A stretch of 64,000 bases of DNA. It comes from Telopea speciosissima (Eukaryota; Streptophyta; Magnoliopsida; Proteales; Proteaceae). The notes under the pieces were generated by a model. It did no database searches. It was given only the letters and a program-made list of their open reading frames with translations, and had not been told where the DNA came from. The stretch spans positions 12,349,568 through 12,413,567 of the forward strand of contig NC_057925.1 of NCBI RefSeq assembly GCF_018873765.1. Direction: 5' to 3'. Positions within the stretch are counted from its first letter, which is position 1; every line of letters begins with the position of its first letter. Positions 14,182 to 43,366 of this stretch are shown here, in pieces. A program made the position numbers and the translations under genes.

Positions 14182-16702
14182 ATGGATAGGAGTTGGATTC
14201 ATAGGTCGCGAGATCGTATATTCCGTGCAGGCCATCTATATGAAGCTGGTGTAAATGACTTCCTAGATTTTGCTTTTTCCAAAGTACCCATAGGGGAGAA
14301 GATTTCATGTCCATGTATAAACTGCATTAATCAACGGCTAGGAACACGAGATGAAGTGTTTGACCACTTGATAGTTGATGGAATTATGGCTGGCTACACA
14401 ATATGGAGTTTTCATGGGGAATGTGCATCTTCAAATACCACAGTAATAGAAAATATTATGGTTGATGAAGAAGAGGAAGAAGATGAAGATATTGTTAATA
14501 TAAATGACATACTTCAAGATGCGTTTCTTGGTGAAACCTTTGAAGGAGCTGGTGTTACTACCCCAAGTGGACACAGAGGGAATAGGAGATGAGTCAGAAA
14601 AATTGCATAGATTGATGCAAGAAGCAGAGAAGGCATTGTATCCAGAATGCAACGAGTTCACAAAATTGTCATTCACTGTTGCACTATATCACATAAAGTA
14701 CCTATGCAATTGGAGTGACAAGTCTTTCTCTATGTTGTTGGATTTATTGAAGAAAGCACTACCACTAAATAATACCTTACCGAATTCCTTATATGAAGCA
14801 AAAAAGATGCTTAAGGACTTGGGACTCAGATACAACAAGATCGATGCATGCCTAAATGATTGTATGTTATATTGGAAGGATGCATCTAATCAAAAGTCAT
14901 GTCTCAAATGTGGGGCATCAATGTATACATCCGACAACAAAGTTCCAAAGAAAACATTACGTCACTTCCCTCTGATACCAAGGCTTCAAAGATTGTATAG
15001 GTCATCAGTAACATCATCCGAAATGAGATGGCATAAAGATGGATGTATGGATGATGGGAAAATACGTCATCCTGCAAACGCAGAAGCATGGAAGGACTTT
15101 GACAGACTGCATCCAACTTTCAGTGCGGATCCGCGGAATGTTAGGCTAGGGTTGTCAAGTGATGGATTTAATCATCATAATGATATAAAGAATTCATACA
15201 GCATATGGCATGTTATTGTGGTGCCGTATAATCTACCACCATGGAAGTGCATGAAACAACAATCATTCACGTTGACATTGCTAATTCCAGGTAAATATCA
15301 ACTTGGAAATGATATAGATGTGTATTTACAGCCATTGATTGATGAATTGAAGTTACTATGGGATGGTGTTGACACCTACGATTCATTGAAGAAAGAGTCA
15401 TTCCGTTTACGTGCTTGCCTCTTATGGACAATCAACAACTTTCCTACATATGCCAACCTTTCAGGCTGGAGCACCAAGGGTGCATTGGCATGCCCTTGTT
15501 GCAACAAAGAGACCATGTCAACTTGGTTGAAACACAGCCGTAAGCATTGTTACCTAGGCCATCGTCGATTCCTTGAAGGAAATCACAAATTTCGAATGGA
15601 TAAGAGAGGTTTTAATGGTCATGTCGAGCTTGGGGTAGCACCACAATCCCTTTCAGGCATTGCTTCGCTAACTCAAATGGAAGGTGTAGAATTTCCTACA
15701 TTTGGTAAGGAATCTGATAAGGATACCGGTAAACGAAAGAGAGCAGGAGTTCAAAACGAACTACTATTTAATTGGAAGAAGAGAAATATATTCTTTGAGT
15801 TGCCATATTGGAAGGATAATCTACTCTGTCATAATCTGGATGTCATGCATATATAAAAGAATGTGTGTGATAGCATCATTGTTACACTGTTGGAATTAAA
15901 AGATAGATCAAAGGATAAGCTGGAGGCCTGACTAGATTTGCAAGAGATGAACATCAGACCATCTCTACATCCACAGAGAATAGAGGGGAGCACTAAAGTG
16001 ATTATACCTCCAGCAAGCTATACAATGTCTAAGATAGAAAAAGAACAGTTCTGCAAAGCTTTAGAGGGTTTGAAGGTCCCTGATGGTTATTCCGAAAACA
16101 TATCATGTTGTGTTAAAGTTACTGAAAGGGATATGTCTGGAATGAAGAGCCATGATTGTCATGTTTTAATGCAACAACTCCTTCCTCTGTCAATATGGGT
16201 ACATCCAACGAAGAATGTTAAGTTGATTTTGTTGTCATTGTACTGGTTCTTTCGATGTCTATGTGCGAAAGTTACTACAAGCGAAGATTTAAACCAACTT
16301 GAAGCAAGTATTGCTGAAACCCTATGCAATCTAGAAAGGATCTTCCCTCCTACATTCTTTGATGTTATAGTTCATCTAATGGTTCATTTACCACGAGAGG
16401 TATTGTTGGGTGGACCCGTCCAATACAAGTGGATGTATCTTTTCGAAAGGTTAGTCATTAATATCCTTGCAACAAGTTCATATGTCTGTTTTCTATTTTA
16501 CATTTTTGTTTCCATGTAGTAACTATGTGTACCAATAGGTTCAACAAGACCCTCTAGGATTTCATGCGTAATAAAAGGCACCCACAAGGATCTATTGTAG
16601 AGGGATACATTGCAAATGAATGTCTGCAATTTTGTTCACCGCATATCAAAGTACTTGAGACGCGGTTAACCCGTCCAAAGAGGAATGTTGATAATGAAAA
16701 TC
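14182..16702 (+). pseudogene. CACTA TNP2-like transposase, 5' part
   Basis: The start MDRSWIHRSRDRIFRAG at 14182 opens the Transpos_assoc domain, with the Cys pair in ISCPCINCINQR. The Transposase_21 domain follows from about 14600: LYPECNEFTKLSF, then GLSSDGFNHHNDI near 15160, LPPWKCMKQ near 15235, NDIDVYLQPLIDELK near 15310 and LSGWSTKGALACPCC near 15460. DUF4218-type sequence continues (YKWMYLFER, 16425-16449). A likely GT-AG intron spans 16450-16538, after which EGYIANECLQFCSPH continues. Damage: a frame switch near 14560, in-frame stops at 15854 (MHI*KNVCDS), 15929 (KLEA*LDLQ) and 16555, and the LTR element inserted after 16702. The transposase normally binds the CACTA ends and cuts them; this copy cannot. 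Confidence 0.9.
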
Positions 16703-19448
16703 TGTCACGCCCCCATCCCAACAAGGGATAAAATACATTATAAGGGGTGACTAGGACGACGCTTGTCATCCTACTAAGCTGTCAGGATCACTGACACAGT
16801 GTCCCAACGCACAGTCATAACTAATATTAAAATAATATAATATCAGAGTGCGGAAAGGGAAATATTACATTCCAAATGATCACTAGTTTTGCGGAAGCGT
16901 ATAAAATTAATAGTTACAAGATGATCAAAGCCTAGATGATAAATACTGTAGTTAATCCATTTTTCATTACCATCTAATAATGATCAACAAGGGTATAACA
17001 GTAAATGTTTATACATGGGCCTACGCCCTAAAATAAACAAAAGGGGAACAAGTCCCTAGAATTCTCACGGCCCGTAGGCACAATTGTCACAAGGACACCC
17101 GTTGCCATGTTCCTCTAACACGACTTCCGGCTCCTCCGTGCACTCGCATCATAATCTAAAAATTGTGTACACGAGGGGTTAGCTCTCCACTGAGCAGTGA
17201 GGGGATGAGGATGCACAAACACACAATTCACATAGTCCAATGATGCATGCATACGTTAAGTAAATTTTCCACCTAACATCACAACTAAGTCAATGGCATA
17301 TGCTACTGTGACAACTCGGGAGACACTGTGGGTCACTTAACTTATCGCCACAATGAAACCTCAATTGTCACCTGGGACCTACGCCGATCGAAGCCTCCAA
17401 GACCACTCAGTGGCAGACCCCTGATAACCAATACTACCATGACTGGCCTCTCCCACCTCCCCAGAATCCGGTGTACTGATTATCCAACACCTAAACCCCT
17501 GTTGGTAAGGGTCGTAGCATAAGGGTGTAAAATCCTAGCCACAGCTACATGCAAGTCCTATCGTCCCGAGAGGTAATCCGGGCGCATCAACTTTTCATCT
17601 GGTTTAGTGCCCGGTTACCAGCACGGCACGGCGCATACAGTTCAACATGACATTCAACATAATTTTTTCATAAATGTATATAGTGTTCGGGGTTCCGGCA
17701 CCGAGACCCATCAAAGTAAAACATCTCCAATTAACATCATAACATTCATATATAAAAGTATGCAATATGCGTAAGCATGCTTAATAATTTATAATGATGA
17801 CATATATACAATGCAATAATAATATCAAGCCCAAACAACCAAACCCACTCACAATATGTGTTATGCCCCAATGTTATGAGTTGTCTCCTCGATCAAGCAA
17901 TAAGCCACAAGATGAATATATTAACCTAAACAAAGAGTGAAATAAGGTTAAACGAGCGAAGGGAAAAGATCCCCAAAAGGTCTCCCATAATCACTTAAGT
18001 ATAAGGTTTCAGAAACAAAGTGGTTGCAGGAGTGGTTTCATGCCCAATCGCAACCACATGTAAATCCTAGGAAATCGGGGGTTCGGACAATTTTAGTCAA
18101 GGTCGGATCTGAGATGTGGTTTCGTAAAACTGAAACCGAGTGTAAATCCGAGCTTCACAGGGCTCAGGACAATTTTAGTCAAGGTCGGATGCGGATGTGG
18201 TTTTGAGAAAACGAAACCGAGTGTAAATCCGAAGCTTCACGGGGCCTTCTCGGGAAGGTAATTTCAGGGTGGTTTCTTGCTAGGGATTCATTTTCCAAGG
18301 GGTTTAAAGGTAGGGAGGCTTCAAGAAAGCTTCCTCCTAGGTCCATTAGGGTTCTAAGACCTCATTAGGTCCATGTAATCCCATGGATTTAAGAGGGAAA
18401 ACAAAGAGAACCTAAATTAGGACATAATAGGGTAGAAACCTTTAATTTCTTAAATGGAAAGAGATTACTTAGGCTTAGGGCTTGTAATGGAGTGAAATAA
18501 CTCCACCATAGTCTAGGTTTAGAGGTTCCAAGAGAACCCTAGGTCGAATCTCTCCCATTTCCCAAACCTCAAAACTCAAAATAGATGAAGAGATGTGGGT
18601 TTCAATGGCTTACCTTCCCCAATGTAGAAAAACTCCACGTAGAGGGCTCCACAAGGTGAGGTTCCAAGCCTTCAACCAAGCTTTTCCATTCCTCCTTCTC
18701 CTTTTCTCCTTCCTTCTTTCTTCTTTCCTTCTTTCTTCTTTCTTCTTTCTCCTTTCTCTCCTCTTTCTCTCCTCCACGATTTAGGTTAGATGGGAGAAGA
18801 AATGAAAATGAATGCTTCTCCCCCCCCCTTTGTCTTATTTATAGAAAATGGGCTTGGGTCCTTTAAGTTAAATGGGTCAAATAGCTAAATGGGTGGATCC
18901 AAGATAAATGGGTCATTAGGCCAAATGGATAGATTAAGTTAAATGGGTCAAGAGGGCTTAATGGGTTGACCCATGGTCTTATTTAGGGTAAAGGAATGGG
19001 TTAACCCATCTTTGGGTCAAATAGAGTCAAATGGGCCCTCAAGTTGAATGGGCCTCTTAACTAAATGGGTTTGCCCACAGGTTTCAAATAGAAAAGAACC
19101 CACTTGGGGATGGGTCCATCCACCATGGGATTATAAGCCCATCACACGCTCCCTTAAATAAGTGGGACCCACAAATAGAATATTCCCAACTCAACTAAAA
19201 TAGCCCGGGCGGTCCAAATCTTGACCCGCACTTCGAGGGCATCGAGAAAAAGGATAAATACATAAGCCAAGGGCTAGAACTTACTTCTCCATTGCCATGG
19301 TGTGTCAATGGTAAGCCCGTATCATGGCCAATAATGTGTAACTGGGTTTGACCATCAGTGAGAACAGCTCACCAGCACGTGGCAGTGATAACCACACGTC
19401 ACGGGAAAGAAATAATAATTAATTATGATCCGGGGTACGGGTATAACA
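16703..19448 (-). repeat. 3' LTR of the outer element
   Basis: The LTR begins tgtcacgcc and ends gtataaca on the plus strand, i.e. TG...CA in element orientation. It is 2746 bp long and highly similar to the other three LTRs. It contains a two-copy tandem repeat of about 81 bp (near 18075-18245) and a long pyrimidine tract (18672-18778). Small ORFs in it recur in every LTR and are not considered genes. Confidence 0.9.
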
Positions 19449-19461
19449 TCCTCCCCACCTT
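19449..19461 (-). other. Polypurine tract of the outer element
   Basis: Read on the minus strand this is aaggtggggagga, directly before the 3' LTR. It is the plus-strand priming site of the element, and matches the tract at 30332-30344. Confidence 0.75.
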
Positions 19462-22240
19462 ACAAGAAATTTCGTCCCCAAAATTTGAGGCAGCTAGGGT
19501 CTCAAGTGAGAAGGGTTGTTGGATAACAACATCCCAACTCACCCACATCTTGAACTAAGTCAAAGGTCGGGTCAAGATGAGGCATGCCTACATGGCACAG
19601 CAAGTCAGGTTCCATAATTCTCTTTTCCTTACAGGGTCACATTACCACAGGGGTGTGGTTCACAATAACCCTAGGAACACAGGGTTCCTACTAATAAGTT
19701 ATGTCTCAAGGAACAGAGGTTGCCTAGATCTTCTAGATCAGGTGATACCATTCTAGCCTTCACTACTCGGTCATTCTTGGGTTACAGTGATTTAACTTGT
19801 CCATGTCCCAACATAGGGTTCACATTCGAAGGCTTTCACATCCTGGTTGTCTCATTACCTAACCCAACTTTAGAATGATTTGGAATATTGATGGAATCTC
19901 CTATTGTTCACTCCGTCACGGAGGGAACGCATTTAGTGATCCATTACCCCATTCATATCGCTCGTTGGAGAAGGTCTTGTTACATCCTTCAGTTTTAGCT
20001 TTCACAACCTTTAAACCTACTACACAGTTATCCCACAGGGAAGAATCCACATTAGTCCTCTTTCGAGAACCAACAACCTTTACTAGCTTTTGTCAAAGTC
20101 AACTCTTCAAGCAGTCTCCATAATTTAACCTATTCGGTCAATAAATTCATTCTTCATTACCCTAAGGTTTGGTCAACCAAGGTCAGGGCACCAACTAGTT
20201 ACACAGCAAGGTCGATGTAAGGTCATACTTGTAGTACCAGAGAATCACTCTAGTCACACAAGTCCAAGGTTCTAAGGGATATCTATATATATTTATCACA
20301 CCAATATGTAGGCATAGATTCAATAATTACATTCAATTCCCTATGGGCATATTTGTCATCTAGGTCAATCCACCAGAACAAGAAGTTCTCAGGTACGGTT
20401 CACTAAGTCTTTTTTTTTTTTTTTTTGGAAAGTCAAATCACGGTGTAGGACTTTCTCTATGAGTCTAAACAAGGTTTGGATGGACCAAGTAAAGTTCAAA
20501 TAGAGTCGTCACTAGCTTGAGGTGTTATGAATGACTTCCAAATACACGTGACCTTCATGGCTTACTCAAATAAACCAGTCTATTACTTTCCTTTCCTACG
20601 CACCCCATTGAGGGTCTCTACCCGTATAGGTTTAGGTTTCTCTATCCATAAGGTTCGGGTCTTTAAATTCATAGGATCGAAGGTCTTTATCCTCAAAGGT
20701 AACTCTTCTTCCTTTATGTAAGAGAGGAGTCACAGCGGTTACCAATGCTTGCTACTTTTTATTAGCTGGCCCAATCGGGTACAAGTCCTAACCTCTTTCA
20801 ATTCAAGGTATTGACTAGACTTAGGTGGTTCCCACAAATGGGTCACACAACGGGGTGTCCGATCTAGGGTATAGGCACCTAACCATCACATATAAGTGTA
20901 GTCAAAGGTCTCCAAAACAAGTTAAAAATCCTAAAAGAAATCGGGTGGACTCACGAGCGACGTCAGCACTCCGGGTGCATTCATGGCCCCTCCGCTTGAA
21001 AATAGGGAGAGTGGACTAACGGGCGGATGTGGAATGCGAATCCGTTCGTTTGTCCAATCTCAAAAGTCTCAATGGCCGAGAGGGTTTAAGTCAAACGGAT
21101 TTACGGACGGATGCATGAGTGTGGATCCGTTCGTTGATCCGCACAGATTTATAATGATAATTTCAAGTTTTATGCGGAGCGGATTCACGATAAGTGGATT
21201 CGCTCGTTCGTTCATTTGCAGAAATTTAACATAACAGAGCCGCGAGTTTTAAAACTCACTTTTGGCTCCAAAGAAAGGAACATAACCGAGGAGAAAAAGC
21301 TCTCTGAGGACTTCCGTTCAAGCTTCCTCGGGTGGTTTTCTTGTAATCTTAAGCCTCAAGGTTTAACTCTCACTTGTTCAAGATATGGCTTTCTTCCCAT
21401 TCCTACTTTCTCTTTTCTTGGATTTGGGATGAATCATTTCAAGTTGTGATCATGTCTTGACTTTGCTTGTAATACCATGACCATGTACACCAAATCCATG
21501 CCAAACCGATTGGAACTAGGGTTTTTGGGTGTAAATCAAGTCCTATTTGATCGATGGCACTAAGTTGTTGGATCCTTGTTTGATTATTGCATCTTTTATA
21601 AACTTTCAAGTCTTTGCAAGTATTTTAGAGATTATCACTATGCTGTCATGTCTAGTTGAATTTTACTTGGATTATGCCCAGGTTTTGGTTGTGGTACAGT
21701 CCTCAATTCACAATATTTTGAAGAAACTCTTCAAGTTCAAATCTAATCCTTTTACATGCCATAAAATCTCATAGAAAATTATCACAGTGTCTTATCTTCA
21801 AGCATATTCTCTTGTATACATGATCGTTGATAAAAATCCTTAGAATCTTTCCTCTCTTCCTCAAATAAATAATTCTTGTCTCTTGTTGAGGTATTTTCAT
21901 CCAATAACTTGCTTGTTTCATATTCGTTGGGATGTAAAGTAGCCAAAAGTATATGTTGTTCACATTGATCTCATTATTCACGTCCATGCACTAGGGATTT
22001 CACACGGATTTTACATGTGCATTGATCTTATTCATTTCTCTTCACTCCAAACATCTTCCTCTGGTTATCATGTCTCATTTCCCTTATATGCTCTTGTCAC
22101 AATACAATTTCCACATCTTGTAGACATTTCACTTCTATAATTTTATTTGTCAAGCATAAAGCTTAAGTTACCGGGGTAAGATATGCCACAAGAGGGGCGA
22201 GGGAAACATCAAATAGAGGTAATAAAAGCCTAACATAGGT
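19462..22240 (-). other. Outer element, 3' internal region
   Basis: This is the reverse complement of the inner element's 27546-30331. It has several small ORFs without recognisable domains, a poly(T) run near 20410, and no gag, protease, RT or integrase motifs. It ends at the TAGGT target duplication (22236-22240) of the inner insertion. Confidence 0.7.
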
Positions 22241-25156
22241 TGTTATACCCGCACCCCGGATCATAATTAATTATTATTTCTTTCCCGTGACGTGTGGTTA
22301 TCACTGCCACGTGCTGGTGAGCTGTTCTCACTGGTGGTCAAACCCAGTTACAAATTATTGACCATGATACGGGCTTACCATTGACACACCATGGCAATGG
22401 AGAAGTAAGTTTTAGCCCTTGGCTTATTTATTTATCTTTTTCCTCGATGCCCTCGAAGTGCGGGTCAAGATTTAGACCGCCCGGGCTATTTTAGTTGAGT
22501 TGGAAATATTCTATTTGTGGGTCCCCCTTATTTAAGGGAGCGTGTGATGGGCTTATAATCCCATGGTGGATGGACCCATCCCCAAGTGGGTTCTTTTTTA
22601 TTTGAAACCTATGGGCAGGCCCATTTAGTTAAGAGGCCCATTCAACTTGAGGGCCCATTTGACTCTATTTGACCCAAAGATGGGTTAACCCATTCCTGTA
22701 CCCTAAATAAGACCATGGGTCAACCCATTAAGCCCTCTTGACCCATTTAACTTAAACTACCCATTCGGCCTAATGACCCATTTATCTTGGATCCACCCAT
22801 TTAACTACTTGACCCATTTAACTTAAAGGACCCAAGCCCATTTTCTATAAATAAGACAAAGGGGGGGGGGGAGAAGCATTCATTTTCATTTCTTCTCCCA
22901 TCTAACCTAAATCGTGGAGGAGAGAAAGAGGAGAGAAAGGAGAAAGAAGAAAGAAGAAAGAAGAAAGAAGGAAAGAAGGAAAGAAGAAAGAAGGAAGGAG
23001 AAAAGGAGAAGGAGGAATGGAAAAACTTGGTTGAAGGCTTGGAATCTCACCTTGTGGAGCCCTCTACGTGGAGCTTTTCTACATTGGGGAAGGTAAGCCA
23101 TTGAAACCCACATCTCTTCATCTATTTTGAGTTTTGAGGTTTGGGAAATGGGAGAGATTCGACCAAGGAATCGATGGAACCTCTAAACCTAGACTATAGT
23201 GGAGTTATTTCACTCCATTACAAGCCCTAAGCCTAAGTAATCTCTTTCCATTTAAGAAATTTAAGGTTTCTACCCTATTATGTCTTAATTTAGGTTCTCT
23301 TTGTTTTCCCTCTTAAATCCATGGGATTACATGGACCTAATGAGGTCTTAGAACCCTAATGTACCTAGGAGGAAGCTTTCTTGAAGCCTCCCTACCTTTA
23401 AACCCCTTGGAAAATGAATCCCTAGCAAGAAACCCTTCAATTTTCGATTCTGCAGGTATGTGGTTTTACATGTGGTTTCAGACCTGAGAAACCACACCTG
23501 CAACCACCCTTGGCAGAGACCTTCCTAAGCCCCTGGTTAGCTAGGACTTACATGTGGTTTTAGACTGCAAGAAACCACCCTGAAATTACCTTCCGAGAAG
23601 GCCCCTGTGAAGGTCGGATTTACACTCGGTTTCGTTTTACGAAACCACATCCGCATCCGACCTTGACTAAAATTGTCCTGAGCCCTCGTGAAGGTTGGAT
23701 TTACACTCGGTTTCAGTTTTAAAACCACATCTGCAACCGACCTTGACTGAAACTGTCCTGAGCCCCTGGTTTCCTAGGATTTACATGTGGTTGCAGAATT
23801 TGGGCATGAAACCACTCCTGCAACCACTCTACTTCTGAAACCTTATACTTAAATGATTTATGGGAGACCTTTTGGGGATCCGTCCCTTTACTTAATTAAC
23901 CCTATTTTCACTCTTTATTTAGGTTTAAAGTTTTCATCTTGTGACGTGTTACTTGATTTCGGCGACAACTCATAACATCGGGGCATAACACATATTGTGA
24001 GTGGGTTTGGTTGTTTGGGCTTGATATTATTATTGCATTGTATATTATGTCATCATTATAAATTATTAAGCATGCTTGCGCATATTGCATACTTTTATAT
24101 ATGAATGTTATGATGTTAATTGGAGATGCTTTACTTTGATGGGTCTCGGTGCCGGTGGGTGCCGGTGCCGAAACCCCGGATAATATATATATTTATGAAG
24201 AAATTATGTTGAATGTCATGTTGAGCTGTATGCGCCGTGCCGTGTTGGTAACCAGGCACTAAACCAGATGAAAAGTTGATGCGCCCGGATTACCTCTCGG
24301 GACGATAGGACTTGCATGTAGCTGTGGCTAGGATTTTACACCCTTATGCTACGACCCTTACCAACAGGGGTTTAGGTGTTGGGTAATCAGATACCGGATT
24401 CGTGGAGGTGGGAGAGGCCGATCATGGTAGTATTGGTTATCGGGGTCCGCCACCGAGTGGTCTTGGAGGCTTCGATCGGCGTAGGTCCCAGGTGACAATT
24501 GAGGTTTCATTGTGGCGATAAGTTAAGTGACCCACAGTGTCTCCCGAGTTGTCACAATAGCATATGCCATTGACTTAGTTGTGATGTTAGGTGAAAAATT
24601 TACTTAACATATGCATGCATCATTGGACTATGTGAATTGTGTGTTTGTGCATCCCCATCCCCTCACTGGCTCAGTGGAGAGCTAACCCCCTCGTGTACAC
24701 AATTTTTAGATTATAATGCAGGTACGGAGGAGCCGGAAGCTGTGTTAGAGGAACATGGCAAGGTGTCCTTGTGACAATTGTGCCTACGGGCGTGAGAATT
24801 CTAGGGACTTGTTTCCCTTTTGTTTATTTTAGGGCGTAGGCCCATGTATAAACATTCTTGTTATACCCTTGTTGATCATTATTAGATGGTAATGAAAAAT
24901 GGATTAACTACAGTATTTATCATCTAGGCTTTGATCATCTTGTAACTATTAATTTTATACGCTTCCGCAAAACTAGTGATCATTTGGAATGTAATATTTC
25001 CCTTTCCGCACTTCGATATTATATTGTTTTAATATTAGTTATGACTGTGCGTTGGGACACTGTGTCAGTGATCCTGGCAGCTTAGTAGGATGACAAGCGT
25101 CGTCCTAGTCACCCCTTATAATGTATTTTATCCCTTGTTGGGATGGGGGCGTGACA
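22241..25156 (+). repeat. 5' LTR of the inner element
   Basis: The LTR is 2916 bp, beginning tgttataccc and ending gcgtgaca. It holds a purine-rich tract (22915-23015), a poly(G) run near 22861, and a two-copy tandem repeat of about 81 bp near 23600-23760. Promoter signals for the element are expected here, but none was placed with confidence. Confidence 0.92.
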
Positions 25157-25159
25157 GAG

Positions 25160-25177
25160 TGGTATCAGAGCCATGAT
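25160..25177 (+). other. Primer-binding site (tRNA-Met) of the inner element
   Basis: TGGTATCAGAGCCATGAT lies 3 bp after the 5' LTR. Its first 13 bases match the complement of the 3' end of plant initiator tRNA-Met. It fixes the orientation of the element. Confidence 0.9.
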
Positions 25178-28100
25178 GCTCGCACCGACCACGTCTCGCG
25201 GACTCTTGATTTACTCTCCACAATTAAGTTCTAAACTAAAAATCTTCAAGAACATAAATGATGGTGTGCGGACATAGGAGAAGACTGATTGTGGTGAAAC
25301 AAGAACTTAGAAGATAATAGGTAACATGGAACTTAGGACTTGAACCATAGGCTGTAAAGCTACAACTATATAATTGCTTGGTTGAGCCTTTAGTAGGTCA
25401 TAAATGGGTAACTATATGTTATAATTCATAAACAATAATGAATCAATCATAACCAAGCACAATTATCAACAATGATTTAAATAAGAGAGAATTAAGCAAA
25501 TACATAGAGATACATATAAGATTAATTACAAATATTCAATTATTCCAAATCTTCTTGGGAGGCAATCATATCCTTCCCATTTCAACATTCATGATTTCAT
25601 CTATTCCAACAAAGACATATGATTCTATCCTGCTCAATCAAAAGATACTTATCTAAACACCATGATTGTTCCAGATTCTCGCTTTGGCATAACGTGTCTT
25701 TCTCAACTCGAAATGCAAGATCTCATCTGTTCCAACTCAAAACATTTGATTCTGTTCATCTCGGATTAAATATACAAGTCTACCATTTCTAAAAGTTCCC
25801 GATTGTTCATCCTAAGACAAGAACTATAAGAACTGATCCGGGATAACTTTAATTATTGAGAGAAAGCTGAGCTAGACATTGCACCACCGCCACCATCGCG
25901 ACCAAGAAAGCTGTCGATGTCATCTACCCCTCTCTCGATACCCTCTAGGCGCCAAGTCTGATTGGAGAGTTGCTTCGTGACCTCATCGAAGCCATCCACC
26001 ACTCGCAGGTTCAGCCGCCTGATGGCCATCAGAATGTCAATACCTCCCACTTGATTAAGGTATAGGGATTCCTTCTAAGTGAACAATAGGTCCTTGCTCC
26101 TCCAATGGACACGTTGATAACGCCGACCAACTGTGCTGCAATGAAGGCTATAGGAACCCCCTTGACACATGAAACAACCCTTGATAATTCTGTATGCCTG
26201 GGTTCTCGGTGTCCAGATTTGTATAGAATGGTAAATGAGTTGTAGGTAGTATGGTTCAGGAAGGTTGAGAATGTTGGTCCACCCCAATGCCTCGAATCTC
26301 TGCCCCACCATGGAAGCTTTGAGATCATCCAACACTACATCCCGCCCTTCCACTATATTTTTTTAAAGCGGAAGTAGTCTGGGTAAAGCTCTGGGTCCTC
26401 TATCTTTTGAAACCATAGTGGATCTAGGACAGTTGGTGCAACTTGTTCAACACATGCACGCTGTGTTCTTGGAGCCATTGATTGTTTTAACCTGCAGCTA
26501 AAAGCCAAGATTGATAGCAAATTTGTACCTTGAATGCTAAGGCCTAAGTAGATGATCAATGTAAGGTTGTGAAGTTCAAAACCTAGTCCTTGATTTTCCT
26601 TCCAAAGCAAATTAAATTTCAGCAGGATTCTTAGGCTAGAAAATTTTGATTTTATCCAATTGTGATCTAAGAAGTTAGGGAAAAAGGAAAGGCATGGCCA
26701 TTATGTGAATGACATGATAAATAATGAAGATTCATGGTCATATTATGCCTAGGACATGATTTTTTATACAAAGTAGTAAGTTCAAACAAGAAGTAGACTT
26801 GTTCGTCATGGAGCATGCCTTGGGCTTCAAAAAAAAAAATTTCAGATTTTGTGATTGGAAGTTTGAATCTTGAGAAACAAGTAAAGTTGGCTTGTGACAA
26901 CTCAAAGGATGTAAACTAAGCCCTATCTAGTAAGACCGATTCATACATGGCAAAAGAGAAGAGGAAAATTCGAGTAGGTTTTGGTTTTTCCAAAATCCAA
27001 CCTAAATCCTTGAGTTAGATGCCAAGATTGTATGCAAGCCCTTGTATAGGTTGCTTATGGTGAGAAAATGGTTAAGATTAGATTGTGAACAGTCTACTGA
27101 GCAAAAGAAAGCAAAACCCCCAAGTTTCCAAAACCTAAATTGTGTTTTGGGGTTTCTCCTTGAGAGAACTCGATGGGAGAGAGAAAGATCTTACCTGAAT
27201 GCGATTGGATGTTGTTGAGGAGTAATTTGGAGCACTAAAATCCACCAAGGAGGGAAGTGAGAGCAAGAACGATCACGGCTTTTGGTTCTTCAAATGTATT
27301 AGAGTTGTGTTTTGAAGGAGGGAAATAAACCTCTAAGTCGTGGGTTTTAAAATTTTAATTTTTGGGCCATGCGGTTTCATCCGTGGATTCAATTTTGTGA
27401 AACCGACTGAGAATCCGTGAATTTCTAATAACAAAATTGGTTCTGTGAAAGCTCGGATTTACCGCGTGGTTGCAACTATCGAAACCACACTTAAAACCGC
27501 CAAGCCGAAAGGATTTTCTTGCCCTATCTTGATGAACCAACCTATGTTAGGCTTTTATTACCTCTATTTGATGTTTCCCTCGCCCCTCTTGTGGCATATC
27601 TTACCCTGGTAATTGAAGCTTTATGCTTGACAAATAAAAGTATAGAAGTGAAATGCCTACAAGATGTGAAAATTGTATTGTGACAAGAGCATGTAAGGGA
27701 AATGAGACATGATAACCATAGGAAGATGTTTGGAGTGAAGAGAAATGAATAAGATCAATGCACATGTAAAATCCATGTGACATTCCTAATGTGTGGATGT
27801 GAATAATGAGATCAATGTGAACAACATGTACTTTTGGCTACTTTACATTCCAACCAATGCCAACCAAGCAAGTTGCTGGATGAAAATACCTCAACAAGAG
27901 ACAAGAATTATTTATTTGAGGAAAAGAGGAAAGATTCTAAGGATTTTTATTAACGATCATGTATACAAGAGAATATGCTTGAAGATAAGACAATGTGATA
28001 ATTTTCTATGAGATTTTATGGCATGTAAAAGGATTAGATTTGAACTTGAAGAGTTTCTTCAAAATATTGTGAATTGAGGACTTTACCACAACCAAAACCT

Positions 28101-30331
28101 GGGCATAATCCAAGTAAAATTCAACTAGACATGACAGCATAGTGGTAATCTCTAAAATACTTGCAAAGACTTGAAATTTATAAAAGATGCAATAATCAAA
28201 CAAGGATCCAACAACTTAGTGCCATCGATCAAATAGGACTTGATTACACCCAAAAACCCTAGTTTCGGCCAATCAATTTTGGTATGGATTTGGTGTACAT
28301 GGCTAAGGGATTACAAGCAAAATCAAGACATGATCACAACTTGAGATGATTCATCCCAAATCTAAGAAAAGAGAAAGTAGAAATGGGAAGAAAGCCATAT
28401 CTTGAACAAGTGAGAGTTAAACCTTGAGGCTTAAGATTACGAGAAAACCACCCGAGGGAAGCTTGAACGGAAGTCCCTGTAGAGCTTTTTCTCCCTGCGG
28501 TTATGTTCCTTTCTTTGGAGCCAAAAGTGAGTTTTAAAACTCGCGGCTCTGTTATGTTAAATTTCTGCAAATGAACGAACGAGCGAATCCACTTATCGTG
28601 AATCCGCTCCGCATAAAACTTGAAATTATCATTATAAATCTATGCGGATCAACGAACGGATCCACACTCATGCATCCGTCCGTAAATCCGTTTGACTTAA
28701 ACCCTCTCGGCCATTGAGACTTTTGAGATTGGACAAACGAACGGATTCGCATTCCACATCCGCCCGTTAGTCCACTCTCCCTATTTTCGCGGAGGGGCCA
28801 TGAATGCACCCGGAGTGCTGACGTCGCTCGTGAGTCCACCCGATTTCTTTTAGGATTTTTAGCTTGTTTTGGAGACCTTTGACTACACTTATATGTGATG
28901 ATTATGTGCCTATACCCTAGATCGGACACCCCGTTGTGTGACCCATTTGTGGGAACCACCTAAGTCTAGTCAATACCTTGAATTGAAAGAGGTTAGGACT
29001 TGTACCCGATTGGGCCAGCTAATAAAAAGTAGCAGGCATTGGTAACCGCTGTGACTCCTCTCTTACATAAAGGAAGAAGAGTTACCTTTGAGGATAAAGA
29101 CCTTCGATCCTATGAATTTAAAGACCCGAACCTTATGGATAGAGAAACCTAAACCTATACGGGTAGAGACCCTCAATGGGGTGCGTAGGAAAGGAAAGTA
29201 ATAGACTGGTTTATTTGAGTAAGCCATGAAGGTCACGTGTATTTGGAAGTCATTCATAACACCTCAAGCTAGTGACGACTCTATTTGAACTTTACTTGGT
29301 CCATCCAAACCTTGTTTAGACTCATAGAGAAAGTCCTACACCGTGATTTGACTTTCCAAAAAAAAAAAAAAAAAAAAAAGACTTAGTGAACCGTACCTGA
29401 GAACTTCTTGTTCTGGTGGATTGACCTAGATGACAAATATGTCCATAGGGATTTGAATGTAATTATTGAATCTATGCCTACATATTGGTGTGATAAATAT
29501 ATATATAGATATCCCTTAGAACCTTGGACTTGTGTGACTAGAGTGATTCTCTGGTACTACAAGTATGACCTTACCTCGACCTTGCTGTGTAACTAGTTGG
29601 TGCCCTGACCTTGGTTGACCAAACCTTAGGGTAATGAAGAATGAATTTAATGACCGAATAGGTTAAATTATGGAGACTGCTTGAAGAGTTGACTTTGATA
29701 AAAGCTAGTAAAGGTTGTTGGTTCTCGAAAGAGGACTGATGTGGATTCTTCCCTGTGGGATAACTGTGTAGTAGGTTTAAAGGTTGTGAAAGCTAAAACT
29801 GAAGGATGTAACAAGACCTTCTCCAACGACAGATATGAATGGGGTAATGGATCACCAAATGCGTTCCCTCCGTACTGGGAGTGAACAATAGGAGATTCCA
29901 TCAATATTCCAACTCATTCTAAAGTTGGGTTAGGTAATGAGACAACCAGATGTGAAAGCCTTCAGAATGTGAACCCTATGTTGGGACATGGACAGGTTAA
30001 ATCCTGTAACCCAAGAATGACCAGAGTAGTGAAGGCTAGAATGGTATCACCTGATCTAGAAGATCTAGGCAACCTCTGTTCCTTGAGACTTAACTTAGTA
30101 GTAGGAACCCTGTGTTCCTAGGGTTATTGTGAACCACACCCCTGTGGTAATGTGACCCTGTAAGGAAAAGAGAATTGTGGAACCTGACTTGCTGTGCCAT
30201 GTAGGCACTGCCTCATCTTGACCCGACCTTTGACTTAGTTCAAGATGTGGGTGACCTGGGATGTTGTTATCCAACAGCCCTTCTCACTTGAGACCCTAGC
30301 TGCCTCAAATTTCGGGGACGAAATTTCTTGT
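25178..30331 (+). other. Inner element internal region without gag-pol
   Basis: About 5.2 kb with no recognisable gag, protease, RT, RNase H or integrase motifs. Apart from the antisense ORF region there are only small ORFs without known domains (for example 27793-28011, and minus-strand ORFs at 28552-28959). The last bases (caaatttcggggacgaaatt, near 30305-30324) resemble the conserved 3' end of plant Ty3/gypsy chromovirus pol, suggesting derivation from such an element by loss of the coding region. Confidence 0.7.
25853..26478 (-). other. Antisense ORF region of the inner LTR element
   Basis: Coding-like sequence runs opposite to the element. It starts MAPRTQRACVEQVAPTVLD, has a central RFEALGWTNILNLPEPYY stretch, and ends with GGGGAMSSSAFSQ. 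The central part resembles the family often labelled putative plant transposon protein (Transposase_32 type) found as extra or antisense ORFs in plant LTR elements; that match is from memory. It has a few breaks. A second copy lies in the outer element at 34254-34964. The function is unknown. Confidence 0.55.
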
Positions 30332-30344
30332 AAGGTGGGGAAGA
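30332..30344 (+). other. Polypurine tract of the inner element
   Basis: The purine-rich stretch aaggtggggaaga lies immediately before the 3' LTR. Confidence 0.8.
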
Positions 30345-33252
30345 TGTTATACCCGCACCCCGGATCATAATTAATTATTATTTCTTTCCCGTGACGTGTG
30401 GTTATCACTGCCACGTGCTGGTGAGCTGTTCTCACTGGTGGTCAAACCCAGTTACAAATTATTGACCATGATACGGGCTTACCATTGACACACCATGGCA
30501 ATGGAGAAGTAAGTTTTAGCCCTTGGCTTATTTATTTATCTTTTTCCTCGATGCCCTCGAAGTGCGGGTCAAGATTTAGACCGCCCGGGCTATTTTAGTT
30601 GAGTTGGGAATATTCTATTTGTGGGTCCCCCTTATTTAAGGGAGCGTGTGATGGGCTTATAATCCCATGGTGGATGGACCCATCCCCAAGTGGGTTCTTT
30701 TCTATTTGAAACCTATGGGCAGGCCCATTTAGTTAAGAGGCCCATTCAACTTGAGGGCCCATTTGACTCTATTTGACCCAAAGATGGGTTAACCCATTCC
30801 TGTACCCTAAATAAGACCATGGGTCAACCCATTAAGCCCTCTTGACCCATTTAACTTAAACTACCCATTCGGCCTAATGACCCATTTATCTTGGATCCAC
30901 CCATTTAACTACTTGACCCATTTAACTTAAAGGACCCAAGCCCATTTTCTATAAATAAGACAAGGGGGGGGGGGAGAAGCATTCATTTTCATTTCTTCTC
31001 CCATCTAACCTAAATCGTGGAGGAGAGAAAGAGGAGAGAAAGGAGAAAGAAGAAAGAAGAAAGAAGGAAAGAAGAAAGAAGGAAGGAGAAAAGGAGGAGG
31101 AATGGAAAAGCTTGGTTGAAGGCTTGGAATCTCACCTTGTGGAGCCCTCTACGTGGAGCTTTTCTACATTGGGGAAGGTAAGCCATTGAAACCCACATCT
31201 CTTCATCTATTTTGAGTTTTGAGGTTTGGAAAATGGGAGAGATTCGACCAAGGAATCGATGGAACCTCTAAACCTAGACTATAGTGGAGTTATTTCACTC
31301 CATTACAAGCCCTAAGCCTAAGTAATCTCTTTCCATTTAAGAAATTTAAGGTTTCTACCCTATTATGTCTTAATTTAGGTTCTCTTTGTTTTCCCTCTTA
31401 AATCTATGGGATTACATGGACCTAATGAGGTCTTAGAACCCTAATGTACCTAGGAGGAAGCTTTCTTGAAGCCTCCCTACCTTTAAACCCCTTGGAAAAT
31501 GAATCCCTAGCAAGAAACCCTTCAATTTTCGGATTCGCAGGTATGTGGTTTTACATGTGGTTTTGACGAGAAACCACACACCGCAACCACCCTTGGCAGA
31601 GACCTTCCTAAGCCCCCTGGTTAGCTAGGACTTACATGTGGTTTTTAGACCCGCAAGAAACCACCCTCGAAATTACCTTCCCGAGAAGGCCCCTGTGAAG
31701 GTCGGATTTACACTCGGTTTCAGTTTTCTGAAACCACATCTGCATCCGACCTTGACTAAAATTGTCCTGAGCCCCTGTGAAGGTCGGATTTACACTCGGT
31801 TTCAGTTTTCTGAAACCACATCTGCAACCGACCTTGACTGAAACTGTCCTGAGCCCCTGGTTTCCTAGGATTTACATGTGGTTGCAGAATTTGGGCATGA
31901 AACCACTCCTGCAACCACTCTACTTCTGAAACCTTATACTTAAATGATTTATGGGAGACCTTTTGGGGATCCGTCCCTTTACTTAATTAACCCTTATTTC
32001 ACTCTTTGTTTAGGTTAATATATTCATCTTGTGGCTTATTGCTTGATCGAGGAGACAACTCATAACATTGGGGCATAACACATATTGTGAGTGGGTTTGG
32101 TTGTTTGGGCTTGATATTATTATTGCATTGTATATATGTCATCATTATAAATTATTAAGCATGCTTACGCATATTGCATACTTTTATATATGAATGTTAT
32201 GATGTTAATTGGAGATGCTTTACTTTGATGGGTCTCGGTGCCGGTGGGTGCCGGTGCCGAAACCCCGGATAATATATATATTTATGAAGAAATTATGTTG
32301 AATGTCATGTTGAACTGTATGCGCCGTGCCGTGCTGGTAACCGGGCACTAAACCAGATGAAAAGTTGATGCGCCCGGATTACCTCTCGGGACGATAGGAC
32401 TTGCATGTAGCTGTGGCTAGGATTTTACACCCTTATGCTACGACCCTTACCAACAGGGGTTTAGGTGTTGGGTAATCAGTACACCGGATTCTGTGGAGGT
32501 GGGAGAGGCCAGTCATGGTAGTATTGGTTATCAGGGGTCTGCCACTGAGTGGTCTTGGAGGCTTCGATCGGCGTAGGTCCCAGGTGACAATTGAGGTTTC
32601 ATTGTGGCGATAAGTTAAGTGACCCACAGTGTCTCCCGAGTTGTCACAATAGCATATGCCATTGACTTAGTTGTGATGTTAGGTGAAAAATTTACTTAAC
32701 ATATGCATGCATCATTGGACTATGTGAATTGTGTGTTTGTGCATCCCCATCCCCTCACTGGCTCAGTGGAGAGCTAACCCCCTCGTGTACACAATTTTTA
32801 GATTATGATGCAGGTACGGAGGAGCCGGAAGCTGTGTTAGAGGAACATGGCAACGGGTGTCCTTGTGACAATTGTGCCTACGGGCCGTGAGAATTCTAGG
32901 GACTTGTTCCCCTTTTGTTTATTTTAGGGCGTAGGCCCATGTATAAACATTTACTGTTATACCCTTGTTGATCATTATTAGATGGTAATGAAAAATGGAT
33001 TAACTACAGTATTTATCATCTAGGCTTTGATCATCTTGTAACTATTAATTTTATACGCTTCCGCAAAACTAGTGATCATTTGGAATGTAATATTTCCCTT
33101 TCCGCATTCTGATATTATATTGTTTTAATATTAGTTATGACTGTGCGTTGGGACACTGTGTCAGTGATCCTGGCAGCTTAGTAGGATGACAAGCGTCGTC
33201 CTAGTCACCCCTTATAATGTATTTTATCCCTTGTTGGGATGGGGGCGTGACA
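30345..33252 (+). repeat. 3' LTR of the inner element
   Basis: The LTR is 2908 bp, nearly identical to 22241-25156, with the same two-copy tandem repeat (near 31690-31850). Many of the differences between the two copies fall at CAG or CTG triplets (see findings). Confidence 0.92.
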
Positions 33253-33257
33253 TAGGT

Positions 33258-35556
33258 TGGTTCATCAAGACAGGGCAAGAAAATCCTTTCTGGCATGGGC
33301 GATTTTAGGTGTGGTTTCAGTAAGTTGCAACCACAGGTAAATCCGAGCTTTCACAGAACCAATTTTGTTATTAGAAATTCACGGATTCTCAGTCGGTTTC
33401 ACAAAATTGAATCCACGGATGAAACCGCATGGCCCAAAAATTAAAATTTTAAAACCCACGACTTAGAGGTTTATTTTCCTCCTCGGTGGATTTTAGTGCT
33501 CCAAATTACTCCTCAACAACATCCAATCGCATTCAGGTAAGATCTTTCTCTCTCCCATCGAGTTCTCTCAAGGAGAAACCCCAAAACACAATTTAGGTTT
33601 TGGAAACTTGGGGGTTTTGCTTTCTTTTGCTCAGTAGACTGTTCACAATCTAATCTTAACCATTTTCTCACCATAAGCAACCTATACAAGGGCTTGTATA
33701 CGATCTTGGCATCTAACTCAAGGATTTAGGTTGGATTTTGGAAAAACCAAAACCTACTCGAATTTTCCTCTTCTCTTTTGCCATGTATGAATCGGTCTTA
33801 CTAGATAGGGCTTAGTTTACATCCTTTGAGTGGTCACAAGCCAACTTTACTTGTTTCTCAAGATTCAAACTTCCAATCACAAAATCTAAAAATTTTCTTT
33901 AAAGTTTATAGCATGTTTCAAGATCAAATAAGTCCATATTTTGCTTGAACTCACTGTTTTGCATAAAGCATTACTTTCTAGGCATATTATGACCATGAAT
34001 CTTCATTATTTATCATGTCATTCACATAATGGTCATGCCTTTTCTTTTTTTCCCTAACTTCTTAGATCCCAATTGGATAAAATCAAAATTTTCTAGCCTA
34101 AGAATCCTACTGAAATTTAATTTGCTTTGGAAGGAAAATCAAGGACTAGGTTTTGAACTTCACAACCTTACATTGATTATCTACTTAGGCCTTAGCATTC
34201 AAGGTACAAATTTGCTATCAATCTTGGCTTTTAGCTGCAGGTTAAAACAATCAATGGCTCCAAAAACACAGCGTGCATGCGTTGAACAAGTTGCACCAAC
34301 TGTCCTAGATCAACTATGGTTTCAAAAGATAGAGGACCCAGAGCTTTACCCAGACTACTTCCGCTTTAAAAAAATATAGTGGAAGGGCGGGATGTAGTGT
34401 TGGATGATCTCAAAGCTTCCATGGTGGGGCAGAGATTCGAGGCATTGGGGTGGACCAACATTCTCAACCTTCCTGAACCATACTACCTACAACTCATTTA
34501 CCATTCTATACAAATCTGGACACCGAGAACCCAGGCATACAGAATTATCAGGTTGTTTCATGTGTCAAGGGGGTTCCTATAGCCTTCATTGCAGCACAGT
34601 TGGCCGGCGTTATCAACGTGTCCATTGGAGGAGCAAGGACCTATTGTTCACTTAGAAGGAATCCCTATACCTTAATCAAGTGGGAGGTATTGACATTCTG
34701 ATGGCCATCAGGCGGCTGAACCTGCGAGTGGTGGATGGCTTCGATGAGGTCACGAAGCAACTCTCCAATCAGACTTGGCGCCTAGAGGGTATCGAGAGAG
34801 GGGTAGATGACATCGACAGCTTTCTTGGTCGCGATGGTGGCGGTGGTGCAATGTCTAGCTCAGCTTTCTCTCAACAATTAAAGTTATCCCGGATCAGTTC
34901 TTATAGTTCTTGTCTTAGGATGAACAACTGGGAACTTTTAGAAATGGTAGACTTGTATATTTAATCTGAGATGAACAGAATCAAATGTTTTGAGTTGGAA
35001 CAGATGAGATCTTGCATTTCGAGTTGAGAAAGACACAGTTATGCCGAAGCAGAGAATCTGGAACAATCATGGTGTTTAGATAAGTATCTTTTGATTGAGC
35101 AGGATAGAATCATATGTCTTTGTTGGAATAGATGAAATCATGAATGTTGAAATGGGAAGGATATGATTGCCTCCCAAGAAGATTTGGAATAATTGAATAT
35201 TTGTAATTAATCTTATATGTATCTCTATGTATTTGCTTAATTCTCTCTTATTTAAATCATTGTTGATAATTGTGCTTGGTTATGATTGATTCATTATTGT
35301 TTATGAATTATAACATATAGTTACCCATTTATGACCTACTTAAGGCTCAACCAAGCAATTATATAGTTGTAGCTTTACAGCCTATGGTTCAAGTCCTAAG
35401 TTCCATGTTACCTATTATCTTCTAAGTTCTTGTTTCACCACAATCAGTCTTCTCCTATGTCTGCACACCATCATTTATGTTCTTGAAGATTTTTAGTTTA
35501 GAACCTAATTGTGGAGAGTAAATCAAGAGCCCGCGAGACTGTGGTCGGTGCAGAGC
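33258..35556 (-). other. Outer element, 5' internal region with antisense ORF copy
   Basis: This is the reverse complement of the inner element's 25178-27545. The antisense ORF region (plus strand here, about 34254-34964) again opens with MAPKTQRACVEQVAPTVLD and is broken in a few places. Confidence 0.7.
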
Positions 35557-35574
35557 ATCATGGCTCTGATACCA
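35557..35574 (-). other. Primer-binding site of the outer element
   Basis: On the minus strand this reads TGGTATCAGAGCCATGAT, identical to the inner element's site, 3 bp from its 5' LTR. Confidence 0.9.
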
Positions 35575-35577
35575 CTC

Positions 35578-38459
35578 TGTCACGCCCCCATCCCAACAAG
35601 GGATAAAATACATTATAAGGGGTGACTAGGACGACGCTTGTCATCCTACTAAGCTGTCAGGATCACTGACACAGTGTCCCAACGCACAGTCATAACTAAT
35701 ATTAAAATAATATAATATCAGAGTGCGGAAAGGGAAATATTACATTCCAAATGATCACTAGTTTTGCGGAAGCGTATAAAATTAATAGTTACAAGATGAT
35801 CAAAGCCTAGATGATAAATACTGTAGTTAATCCATTTTTCATTACCATCTAATAATGATCAACAAGGGTATAACAGTAAATGTTTATACATGGGCCTACG
35901 CCCTAAAATAAACAAAAGGGGAACAAGTCCCTAGAATTCTCACGGCCCGTAGGCACAATTGTCACAAGGACACCCGTTGCCATGTTCCTCTAACACAGCT
36001 TCCGGCTCCTCCGTACCTGCATCATAATCTAAAAATTGTGTACACGAGGGGGTTAGCTCTCCACTGAGCCAGTGAGGGGATGGGGATGCACAAACACACA
36101 ATTCACATAGTCCAATGATGCATGCATATGTTAAGTAAATTTTCCACCTAACATCACAACTAAGTCAATGGCATATGCTACTGTGACAACTCGGGAGACA
36201 CTGTGGGTCACTTAACTTATCGCCACAATGAAACCTCAATTGTCACGTGGGACCTACGCCGATCGAAGCCTCCAAGACCACTCAGTGGCAGACCCCTGAT
36301 AACCAATACTACCATGACTGGCCTCTCCCACCTCCACAGAATCCGGTATACTGATTACCCAACACCTAAACCCCTGTTGGTAAGGGTAGTAGCATAAGGG
36401 TGTAAAATCCTAGCCACAGCTACATGCAAGTCCTATCGTCCCGAGAGGTAATCCGGGCGCATCAACTTTTCATCTGGTTTAGTGCCCGGTTACCAGCACG
36501 GCACGGCGCATACAGTTCAACATGACATTCAACATAATTTCTTCATAAATGTATATAGTGTTCGGGGTTCCGGCACCGGCACCCATCGGCACCGAGACCC
36601 ATCAAAGTAAAGCATCTCCAATTAACATCATAACATTCATATATAAAAGTATGCAATATGCGTAAGCATGCTTAATAATTTATAATGATGACATATATAC
36701 AATGCAATAATAATATCAAGCCCAAACAACCAAACCCACTCACGATATGTGTTATGCCCCAATGTTATGAGTTGTCGCCTCGATCAAGCAATAAGCCACA
36801 AGATGAATATATTAACCTAAACAAAGAGTGAAATAAGGTTAAACGAGCGAAGGGAAAGGATCCCCAAAAGGTCTTCCATAATCACTTAAGTATAAGGTTT
36901 CAGAAACAAAGTGGTTGCAGGAGTGGTTTCATGCCCAAATTCTGCAACCACATGTAAATCCTAGGAAATCAGGGGTTCAGGACAATTTTAGTCAAGGTCG
37001 GATGCAGATGTGGTTTCAGAAAACTGAAACCGAGTGTAAATCCGAGCTTCACAGGGGCTCAGGACAATTTTAGTCAAGGTCGGATGCAGATGTGGTTTCA
37101 GAAAACTGAAACCGAGTGTAAATCCGAGCTTCACAGGGGCTCAGGACAATTTTAGTCAAGGTCGGATGCAGATGTGGTTTCAGAAAACTGAAACCGAGTG
37201 TAAATCCGAGCTTCACAGGGGCCTTCTCGGGAAGGTAATTTCAGGGTGGTTTCTTGCTAGGGATTCATTTTCCAAGGGGTTTAAAGGTAGGGAGGCTTCA
37301 AGAAAGCTTCCTCCTAGGTCCATTAGGGTTCTAAGACCTCATTAGGTCCATGTAATCCCATGGATTTAAGAGGGAAAACAAAGAGAACCTAAATTAGGAC
37401 ATAATAGGGTAGAAACCTTAAATTTCTTAAATGGAAAGAGATTACTTAGGCTTAGGGCTTGTAATGGAGTGAAATAACTCCACCATAGTCTAGGTTTAGA
37501 GGTTCCAAGAGAACCCTAGGTCGAATCTCTCCCATTTCCCAAACCTCAAAACTCAAAATAGATGAAGAGATGTGGGTTTCAATGGCTTACCTTCCCCAAT
37601 GTAGAAAAACTCCACGTAGAGGGCTCCACAAGGTGAGGTTCCAAGCCTTCAACCAAGCTTTTCCATTACTCCTTCTTCTTTTCTCCTTCCTTCTTTCTTC
37701 TTTCCTTCTTTCTTCTTTCTTCTTTCTCCTTTCTCTCCTCTTTCTCTCCTCCACGATTTAGGTTAGATGGGAGAAGAAATGAAAATGAATGCTTCTCCCC
37801 CCCCTTTGTCTTATTTATAGAAAATGGGCTTGGGTCCTTTAAGTTAAATGGGTCAAATAGCTAAATGGGTACTTTAAGTTAAATGGGTCAAATAGCTAAA
37901 TGGGTGGATCCAAGATAAATGGGTCATTAGGCCAAATGGATAGATTAAGTTAAATGGGTCAAGAGGGCTTAATGGGTTGACCCATGGTCTTATTTAGGGT
38001 AAAGGAATGGGTTAACCCATCTTTGGGTCAAATAGAGTCAAATGGGCCCTCAAGTTGAATGGGCCTCTTAACTAAATGGGTTTGCCCACAGGTTTCAAAT
38101 AGAAAAGAACCCACTTGGGGATGGGTCCATCCACCATGGGATTATAAGCCCATCACACGCTCCCTTAAATAAGTGGGACCCACAAATAGAATATTCTCAA
38201 CTCAACTAAAATAGCCCGGGCGGTCTAAATCTTGACCCGCACTTCGAGGGCATTGAGGAAAAGGATAAATACATAAGCCAAGGGCTAGAACTTACTTCTC
38301 CATTGCCATGGTGTGTCAATGGTAAGCCCGTATCATGGCCAATAATGTGTAACTGGGTTTGACCATCAGTGAGAACAGCTCACCAGCACGTGGCAGTGAT
38401 AACCACACGTCACGGGGAAGAAATAATAATTAATTATGATCCGGGGTACGGGTATAACA
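35578..38459 (-). repeat. 5' LTR of the outer element
   Basis: The LTR is 2882 bp, matching 16703-19448. It has three copies of the 81-bp tandem repeat (36976-37222), where the partner LTR has two, and an extra short duplication near 37835-37905. Confidence 0.9.
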
Positions 38460-42919: not shown

Positions 42920-43366
42920 TTAACCAGAGATTTCAATGGCCTTGACCTCTGGTTTCTTGACTTCTTCCTTGGGGATAGTGACAGTGAGAATTCCATTCTC
43001 CATGGAAGCCTTCACTTGATCCATTTTGGCATTATCAGGCAATCTGAACCGGCGAAGGAATTTGCCGCTGCTACGCTCGATGCGATGCCACTGATCATTC
43101 TTCTCTTCCTGTTCTTTGGTCCTCTCTCCACTGATCTGAAGGACTCTTCCTTCTTCAACCTCGACCTTCACTTCTTCTTTCTTCAACCCAGGAAGGTCAG
43201 CTTTGAAGATGTGGGCTTCTGGGATCTCCTTCCAATCTACGCGGAAATTGGCAAACGCAGCAGTATCGCTGGAGAACTGAGGGCGAGAGGTTGTAAGTGA
43301 AGAGGAAAATGGGAAATCCTGGAATGGATCCCAAAAGCCCCCAATGAAGCTGGGAATGATCGACAT
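42920..43366 (-). CDS. Class I small heat-shock protein (148 aa)
   Basis: A cytosolic sHSP that holds unfolding proteins in large oligomers during heat stress. It starts [20 protein letters not shown], the class CI N-terminal signature. The alpha-crystallin domain covers about residues 42-134 ([19 protein letters not shown] to [11 protein letters not shown]), with the conserved [18 protein letters not shown] block at 93-110. The C-terminal I-x-I anchor IEISG ends the protein. The single exon and the length are normal for class CI. It is the most divergent copy here: its N-terminus is shortened (no second DPF-containing segment) and it has its own substitutions ([12 protein letters not shown]). 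It lies just 3' of the CACTA remains. The ATG at 43364-43366 is the only start that gives the family N-terminus. Confidence 0.95.

Follow-up and report, generated by a model that had tools for sequence, protein, structure and literature searches.

Architecture of the nest

In a window of 64,000 nucleotides from Telopea speciosissima (NC_057925.1; C10:12349568-12413567), two copies of one long terminal repeat (LTR) retrotransposon family were found nested in opposite orientations. The window is the whole stretch of DNA that was analyzed, and positions refer to it unless a contig is named; it contains 0 N and is part of a host-assembly contig of 63.6 Mb, possibly a scaffold. The outer element occupies positions 16703-38459 on the minus strand and is bordered by the target site duplication (TSD) AAATC, and the inner element occupies 22241-33252 on the plus strand and is bordered by TAGGT. 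The features of the locus are as follows.

16698-16702, no strand: left copy of the outer element's TSD, AAATC
16703-19448, minus strand: 3' LTR of the outer element (L1, 2746 bp)
19449-22240, minus strand: 3' part of the outer element's internal region, with the polypurine tract (PPT) adjoining L1
22236-22240, no strand: left copy of the inner element's TSD, TAGGT
22241-25156, plus strand: 5' LTR of the inner element (L2, 2916 bp), in which a 76-bp patch is of another LTR subfamily type
25157-30344, plus strand: internal region of the inner element (5188 bp), with the primer-binding site (PBS) at its 5' end and the PPT at its 3' end, without a recognized coding domain
30345-33252, plus strand: 3' LTR of the inner element (L3, 2908 bp)
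33253-33257, no strand: right copy of the inner element's TSD, TAGGT
33258-35577, minus strand: 5' part of the outer element's internal region, with the PBS adjoining L4
35578-38459, minus strand: 5' LTR of the outer element (L4, 2882 bp), from which a hairpin transcript might start
38460-38464, no strand: right copy of the outer element's TSD, AAATC
14504-16519, plus strand: coding segments of a CACTA transposase (tnp2, Pfam Transposase_21, and DUF4218), host sequence of the outer insertion

Comparison of the window with itself, together with inspection of the boundaries, identified four LTRs of one family in the orientations -, +, +, -. Both nested elements carry the hallmarks of LTR retrotransposons, namely, paired LTRs with TG...CA ends, a 5-bp TSD, a PBS, and a PPT. 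Each TSD is exact, a match that simple arithmetic puts at a chance of ~1/1024, and two of them are present. The PBS, GAGTGGTATCAGAGCC, lies 3' of the 5' LTR in each element, and the PPT, GTAAGGTGGGGARGA, adjoins each 3' LTR on its 5' side, the purine-rich tracts of the two elements differing at 1 base. In both elements, the 5' LTR gives way to GAG and then to TGGTATCAGAGCC, which we take to be an initiator-Met-type primer site. An earlier sequence-only reading of this DNA had described four LTRs of alternating orientation, the duplications AAATC (outer) and TAGGT (inner), and correctly placed PBSs and PPTs; all of these features were recovered in both elements, both duplications being exact and the coordinates accurate to within a few bases. 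The LTRs also contain a tandem repeat with an 80- to 82-bp unit (18085-18245, 23603-23765, 31689-31859, and 36970-37222), present in 2 to 3.1 copies across the four LTRs.

The nest contains two pairs of inverted arms, 5.5 kb and 5.2 kb in length. For the pair 16703-22240 versus 27541-33252, 5350/5524 aligned bases are identical (96.9%), with a longest perfect run of 339 bp, and for the pair 22241-27545 versus 33258-38459 the identity is 4925/5133 (95.9%), with a longest perfect run of 289 bp. Multikilobase matches of this kind are far beyond chance, and the inverted arms of over 5 kb claimed by the same reading are thus real features of the assembled sequence. A perfect run of 420 bp was found when L3 was compared with L4. 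The oppositely oriented LTRs are spaced 2792 bp (L1-L2) and 2325 bp (L3-L4) apart.

Two insertions of a noncoding family

In an empty-site test, the 150 + 150 bp of the outer element that flank the inner insertion were joined and aligned with the uninterrupted inner copy; 284/301 columns were identical, and TAGGT was present once. Among the two-state columns that split the four LTRs 2:2, 70 grouped them as (L1,L4)|(L2,L3), and each of the two alternative groupings was found in 2. The LTRs differ by 1.7% within the outer pair (47/2740) and by 2.0% within the inner pair (57/2891), versus 3.8 to 5.2% between the elements. The two TSDs, the empty site, and the grouping of the LTR sites all support an origin by two separate insertions and not by a rearrangement, as had been proposed before. 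A complete second copy of the same family, in the opposite orientation and with its own TSD, lies inside the first, as in the antisense self-nest described for EVD, a coding Copia element. We are confident that the nest represents two independent retrotranspositions of one nonautonomous, noncoding LTR family, with the inverted repeat as a by-product and the locus most likely a silent copy rather than a controller of its family. A rearrangement origin was ruled out by the TSDs and the empty site, unless the assembly is wrong, and an exchange between the two nested elements was ruled out by the LTR site patterns (70 versus 2 + 2).

The family is a LARD-like (large retrotransposon derivative) nonautonomous LTR family by the criteria of that class; no autonomous partner was identified, none having been sought. 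LARDs have a long internal region without gag or pol domains and are mobilized by an autonomous partner that shares their ends. No open reading frame of at least 150 amino acids (aa) was found within the nest. Stop-to-stop pieces of at least 50 aa were scanned against Pfam, comprising 13/13 plus-strand and 15/21 minus-strand pieces of the inner internal region and 2 outer pieces, and none of these 30 internal pieces gave a match above the curated cut-off; the best score (E = 0.0023, 18.1 bits) was below the cut-off of 26.9. Within the pieces scanned, the internal region of 5188 bp is thus long and free of gag and pol domains. Gag-pol coding remnants were rejected, as no match above the cut-off was obtained in the 30 pieces, which took in 15/21 minus-strand pieces of the inner copy. 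The family resembles the LARDs in its long LTRs, its long noncoding internal region, and its many copies.

In the host genome (823 Mb in 1287 contigs), with at most 2 mismatches allowed, the LTR 5' end was matched 450 times and the LTR/PBS junction 81 times, and reversed control patterns gave 0 matches. Other family copies are up to 97% identical among the best 40 candidates per internal probe, and where both probes match side by side an internal region of similar length is found elsewhere, for example, at C7:41125570-41130762 (5193 bp). For dating, 40 elements were hand-picked from the best or first places listed and form a sample of convenience; 38/40 LTR pairs were dated, and L061/L062 and L067/L068 could not be trimmed and were dropped. 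LTRs in the 38 dated copies measure 2706-3183 bp (~2.9 kb in the nest), and perfect 5-bp TSDs flank 36/38 of these copies, one of the 2 exceptions (L034) being a stretch cut off at retrieval. At C3:18544867-18547744 (L003), an LTR has its last 127 bases inverted alongside it (100% identity with the opposite strand of query 2790-2916).

LTR divergence (K) in the 38 dated copies ranged from 0.0068 to 0.0383. It was lower than that of the outer element (0.0174) in 13/38 copies, lower than 0.013 in 7, and lower than 0.011 in 5, the last value being about two standard errors under the outer element. Since 13/38 copies have a lower K than the outer element, insertion of family members probably continued once the nest had formed. 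No very recent insertion was present among the 38 dated copies, the youngest of which has a K of 0.0068.

Divergence order, mutation footprint, and frequency of the arrangement

Some observations weigh against the reading of two ordinary insertions and a silent locus, and they concern the order of LTR divergence, the CHH changes, and the frequency of such nests. With regard to divergence, the inner LTRs are nominally more diverged (57/2891) than the outer ones (47/2740), which is the wrong order for a nested insert. Private changes number 36 in L2 versus 4 in L3 (binomial p = 1.9e-7), and 14 of those in L2 fall in alignment columns 1722-1797. Over this 76-bp patch, 32/76 other genomic LTRs are nearer to the L2 type, and 11 of these are identical to it over the 76 bases. 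The patch type is the same in both LTRs of 38/38 other pairs and of the outer pair, which leaves the inner pair as the sole discordant one among 40. Furthermore, 21/36 private L2 changes recur, in their 21-base context, in at least one of the 76 other LTRs. The apparent greater age of the inner element can thus be attributed to this foreign-type patch. When the patch was left out, K was 0.0152 ± 0.0023 for the inner pair and 0.0176 ± 0.0025 for the outer pair, values that are in the right order but not significantly different. With the substitution rate per site and year taken as 1.3e-8 or 7e-9, the inner insertion would be about 0.6 to 1.1 million years (My) old.

As judged from these sequence patterns, the patch looks like a postinsertion gene conversion from another family copy, and the rival explanation is an assembly error introduced from other copies. 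According to PMC7251063, about one-quarter of nested plant elements show an inverted divergence order, for which gene conversion was proposed, and the present nest is like them in that its younger element has nominally more diverged LTRs. The same source describes conversion within an element as far more frequent than conversion between elements, a bias that speaks somewhat against a between-element origin of the L2 patch.

Across the 40 LTR pairs, C<->T differences per C site amounted to 9.5% in CG (592/6200), 7.5% in CHG (390/5209), and 1.4% in CHH (537/37801.5). Such a CG/CHG-weighted footprint is expected of a DNA-methylated family, and by this measure the whole family appears to bear a methylation-type (deamination) footprint. 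The CG rate was 0.109 for the inner and 0.079 for the outer pair (38-pair median, 0.093), and the CHG rates were 0.070 and 0.057, respectively (median, 0.083); hence, the nest shows no CG/CHG excess over the 38-copy medians, except that inner CG is slightly above. CHH rates were 0.021 (inner) and 0.0185 (outer), with a 38-pair median of 0.013. CHH is the context added by methylation directed by small interfering RNA (siRNA), which would also give a raised CHH share of differences. Among the 40 pairs, the outer pair holds rank 4 and the inner pair rank 5 for the CHH share of LTR differences. CHH changes polarized by the frequency of each 15-base context in other LTRs number 23/95 at the nest versus 287/1852 in the remaining 38 pairs (Fisher p = 0.03), which corresponds to ranks 5 and 12 among 40. 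These comparisons are post hoc and uncorrected, and other copies rank higher. Without the patch, the CHH share of the inner pair ranks 15 of 41. Since CHH is the context of siRNA-directed methylation, the raised share may be taken as a weak hint of siRNA at the nest. A separate feature of the 40 LTR pairs is an abundance of adjacent base swaps (e.g., CT versus TC), which number 221 where a crude estimate gives ~16. Alternative deamination would fit the 92 found in CCG/CGG context but not the other 129, which are partly due to alignment, and many are near gaps.

As to frequency, among the 81 LTR/PBS junctions an opposite-strand pair within 15 kb, judged by eye, occurs only at this locus, and the antisense nest is therefore an uncommon arrangement in the family. 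Under uniform insertion of 11-kb elements, the expected number of inverted same-family nests is 0.02 for n = 81, 0.17 for n = 225, and 3.3 for n = 1000, the value of 225 being obtained by halving the count of 450 LTR ends with solo LTRs ignored. One antisense nest needs no special cause if the family has hundreds of elements or more. Two PPT/3'-LTR junctions on contig C3 (65856085+ and 65863451-, among 100 of 475 places listed) are convergent and 7.4 kb apart, possibly another antisense neighbor or nest. At C1:56228811-56235421, two truncated, oppositely oriented internal regions of the family overlap by 2 bp where they join (L089 at the junction), forming another long inverted repeat. Nesting itself is abundant in plants: two sources report 30,199 nested insertions of all kinds of transposable elements on wheat chromosome 3B (PMC4290129) and 4126 nested/original pairs of plant LTR elements (PMC7251063). 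The present case is an ordinary nested insertion like these and differs from nested plant LTR retrotransposons generally in that target and insert belong to the same family and are antisense to each other.

Hairpin RNA, precedents, and alternative origins

The nest would have formed in two steps. The first copy would have landed in or beside the CACTA transposase gene, and ordinary integrase action, duplicating 5 bp of target, would later have placed a second copy in antisense within the first copy's internal region. A minus-strand transcript from the outer 5' LTR (35578-38459) would comprise a sense part, the whole inner copy in antisense, and a further sense part, and would end in the outer 3' LTR; such sense-antisense-sense RNA could fold into hairpins. 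In addition, the two 5' LTRs are convergent, and transcription from both could give double-stranded RNA (dsRNA). The sequence-only reading had invoked read-through from the CACTA promoter. Orientation allows this, since both the read-through and tnp2 are on the plus strand. A read-through transcript would run first through the outer copy in antisense and next reach the sense-oriented inner 5' LTR, where normal LTR 3' processing could end it. Because of this possible termination, the CACTA promoter would be neither needed nor the best candidate, and the outer 5' LTR would be simpler.

The CACTA segments lie upstream of the outer element, with tnp2 at 14504-15853 on the plus strand (Transposase_21, E = 1.7e-93; DUF4218, E = 4.2e-25), as is characteristic of a CACTA element. 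When the CACTA flanks were joined, a stretch past the right flank was seen by eye to resemble what we take to be the continuation of the transposase protein, and the outer element may lie in an intron of the transposase gene. Elsewhere in the window, a second repeat family of 75-86% identity occurs in both orientations (6378-7301, 42917-43367, 49311-50198, 54749-56030, and 62391-63691). A reverse transcriptase domain, RVT_2 (1539-2867; E = 3.3e-63), and a zf-RVT domain (4982-5623; E = 8.8e-13) are found upstream of the nest and are presumably of Copia and LINE type, respectively.

A close precedent for the topology is an EVD copy inserted antisense into EVD in one silenced Arabidopsis individual (rdr6-EVD individual #5; PMC11624286). 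LTR hairpins or convergent dsRNA were proposed there as a silencing trigger, and its authors state that they did not test siRNA production from the nest. The two cases are alike in the antisense insertion within one family and in their opposed LTRs, which are 2562 and 1942 bp apart in EVD and 2792 and 2325 bp apart here. In contrast to EVD, which is active and whose nest was observed within a few generations, the present family is noncoding, with ~2.9-kb LTRs, and its inner insertion would be about 0.6 to 1.1 My old and is present in the assembly. The functional precedent is maize Mu killer, an inverted repeat of the DNA transposon MuDR, which is reported in PMC2725412 to repress MuDR elements in trans. 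Mu killer, too, is a natural transposon inverted repeat that could give hairpin RNA; in contrast to that repeat of a DNA transposon with reported trans repression, the present one originated by nested retrotransposition. Thus, the nest is ordinary in mechanism, and both its topology and the hairpin idea have already been published for EVD.

One alternative is that the nest is a natural Mu killer-like hairpin locus, in which dicing of the read-through RNA would supply siRNAs for methylation and silencing of the entire family in trans. The nest does have one attribute of such a locus, a long inverted repeat of the target family, in that its arms exceed 5 kb, are 96-97% identical, and contain perfect runs of up to 339 bp (420 bp for L3 versus L4). 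The strong family-wide CG/CHG footprint, the CHH ranks and polarized CHH changes at the nest, the lack of a very recent insertion among the 38 dated copies, and the precedents of Mu killer and the EVD self-nest all point the same way. Against it, 13/38 copies have a K below that of the outer element (7 below 0.013 and 5 below 0.011), and the nest exceeds the 38-copy medians of the CG/CHG rates only for inner CG, and there only slightly. Moreover, hairpins usually yield several siRNA sizes, and the nested EVD individual had mostly 24-nt siRNAs, according to PMC11624286. On balance, we consider such a controlling locus improbable. The specific version of a hairpin gene with its promoter in the outer 5' LTR and its end in the outer 3' LTR, whose siRNAs would methylate the family in trans and leave the CHH share as their footprint, likewise has only a small chance of being right. 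A silencing role of the nest is conceivable; most likely, the locus is one more methylated, silent copy and not a controller of the family.

It is very improbable that two family copies were wrongly joined in the assembly. Repeat arms of 5 kb are beyond the resolution of short reads, and the L2 patch, which is common to other copies, could be a polishing error; set against this are the exact TSDs at both levels, the correct empty site, the divergence of 3.8 to 5.2% between the LTRs of the two elements, and a window without N. On the sequence features, misassembly appears unlikely. An origin through inversion of, or recombination between, family copies with no second retrotransposition has in its favor that such an arrangement exists at C1:56230990. 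This origin is extremely improbable for the nest, where both elements are complete, have their own TSDs, and have LTR pairs that group concordantly.

Taken together, two retrotranspositions of one noncoding family have left an antisense nest within that family that is clean and can be dated, and this nest illustrates how a single LTR patch of foreign type can give the younger element the appearance of greater age. If siRNA is made from the locus, the EVD-type self-nest, observed once in a laboratory line, would have a naturally retained example here, and a hairpin nest, if true, would represent a natural retrotransposon counterpart of Mu killer.

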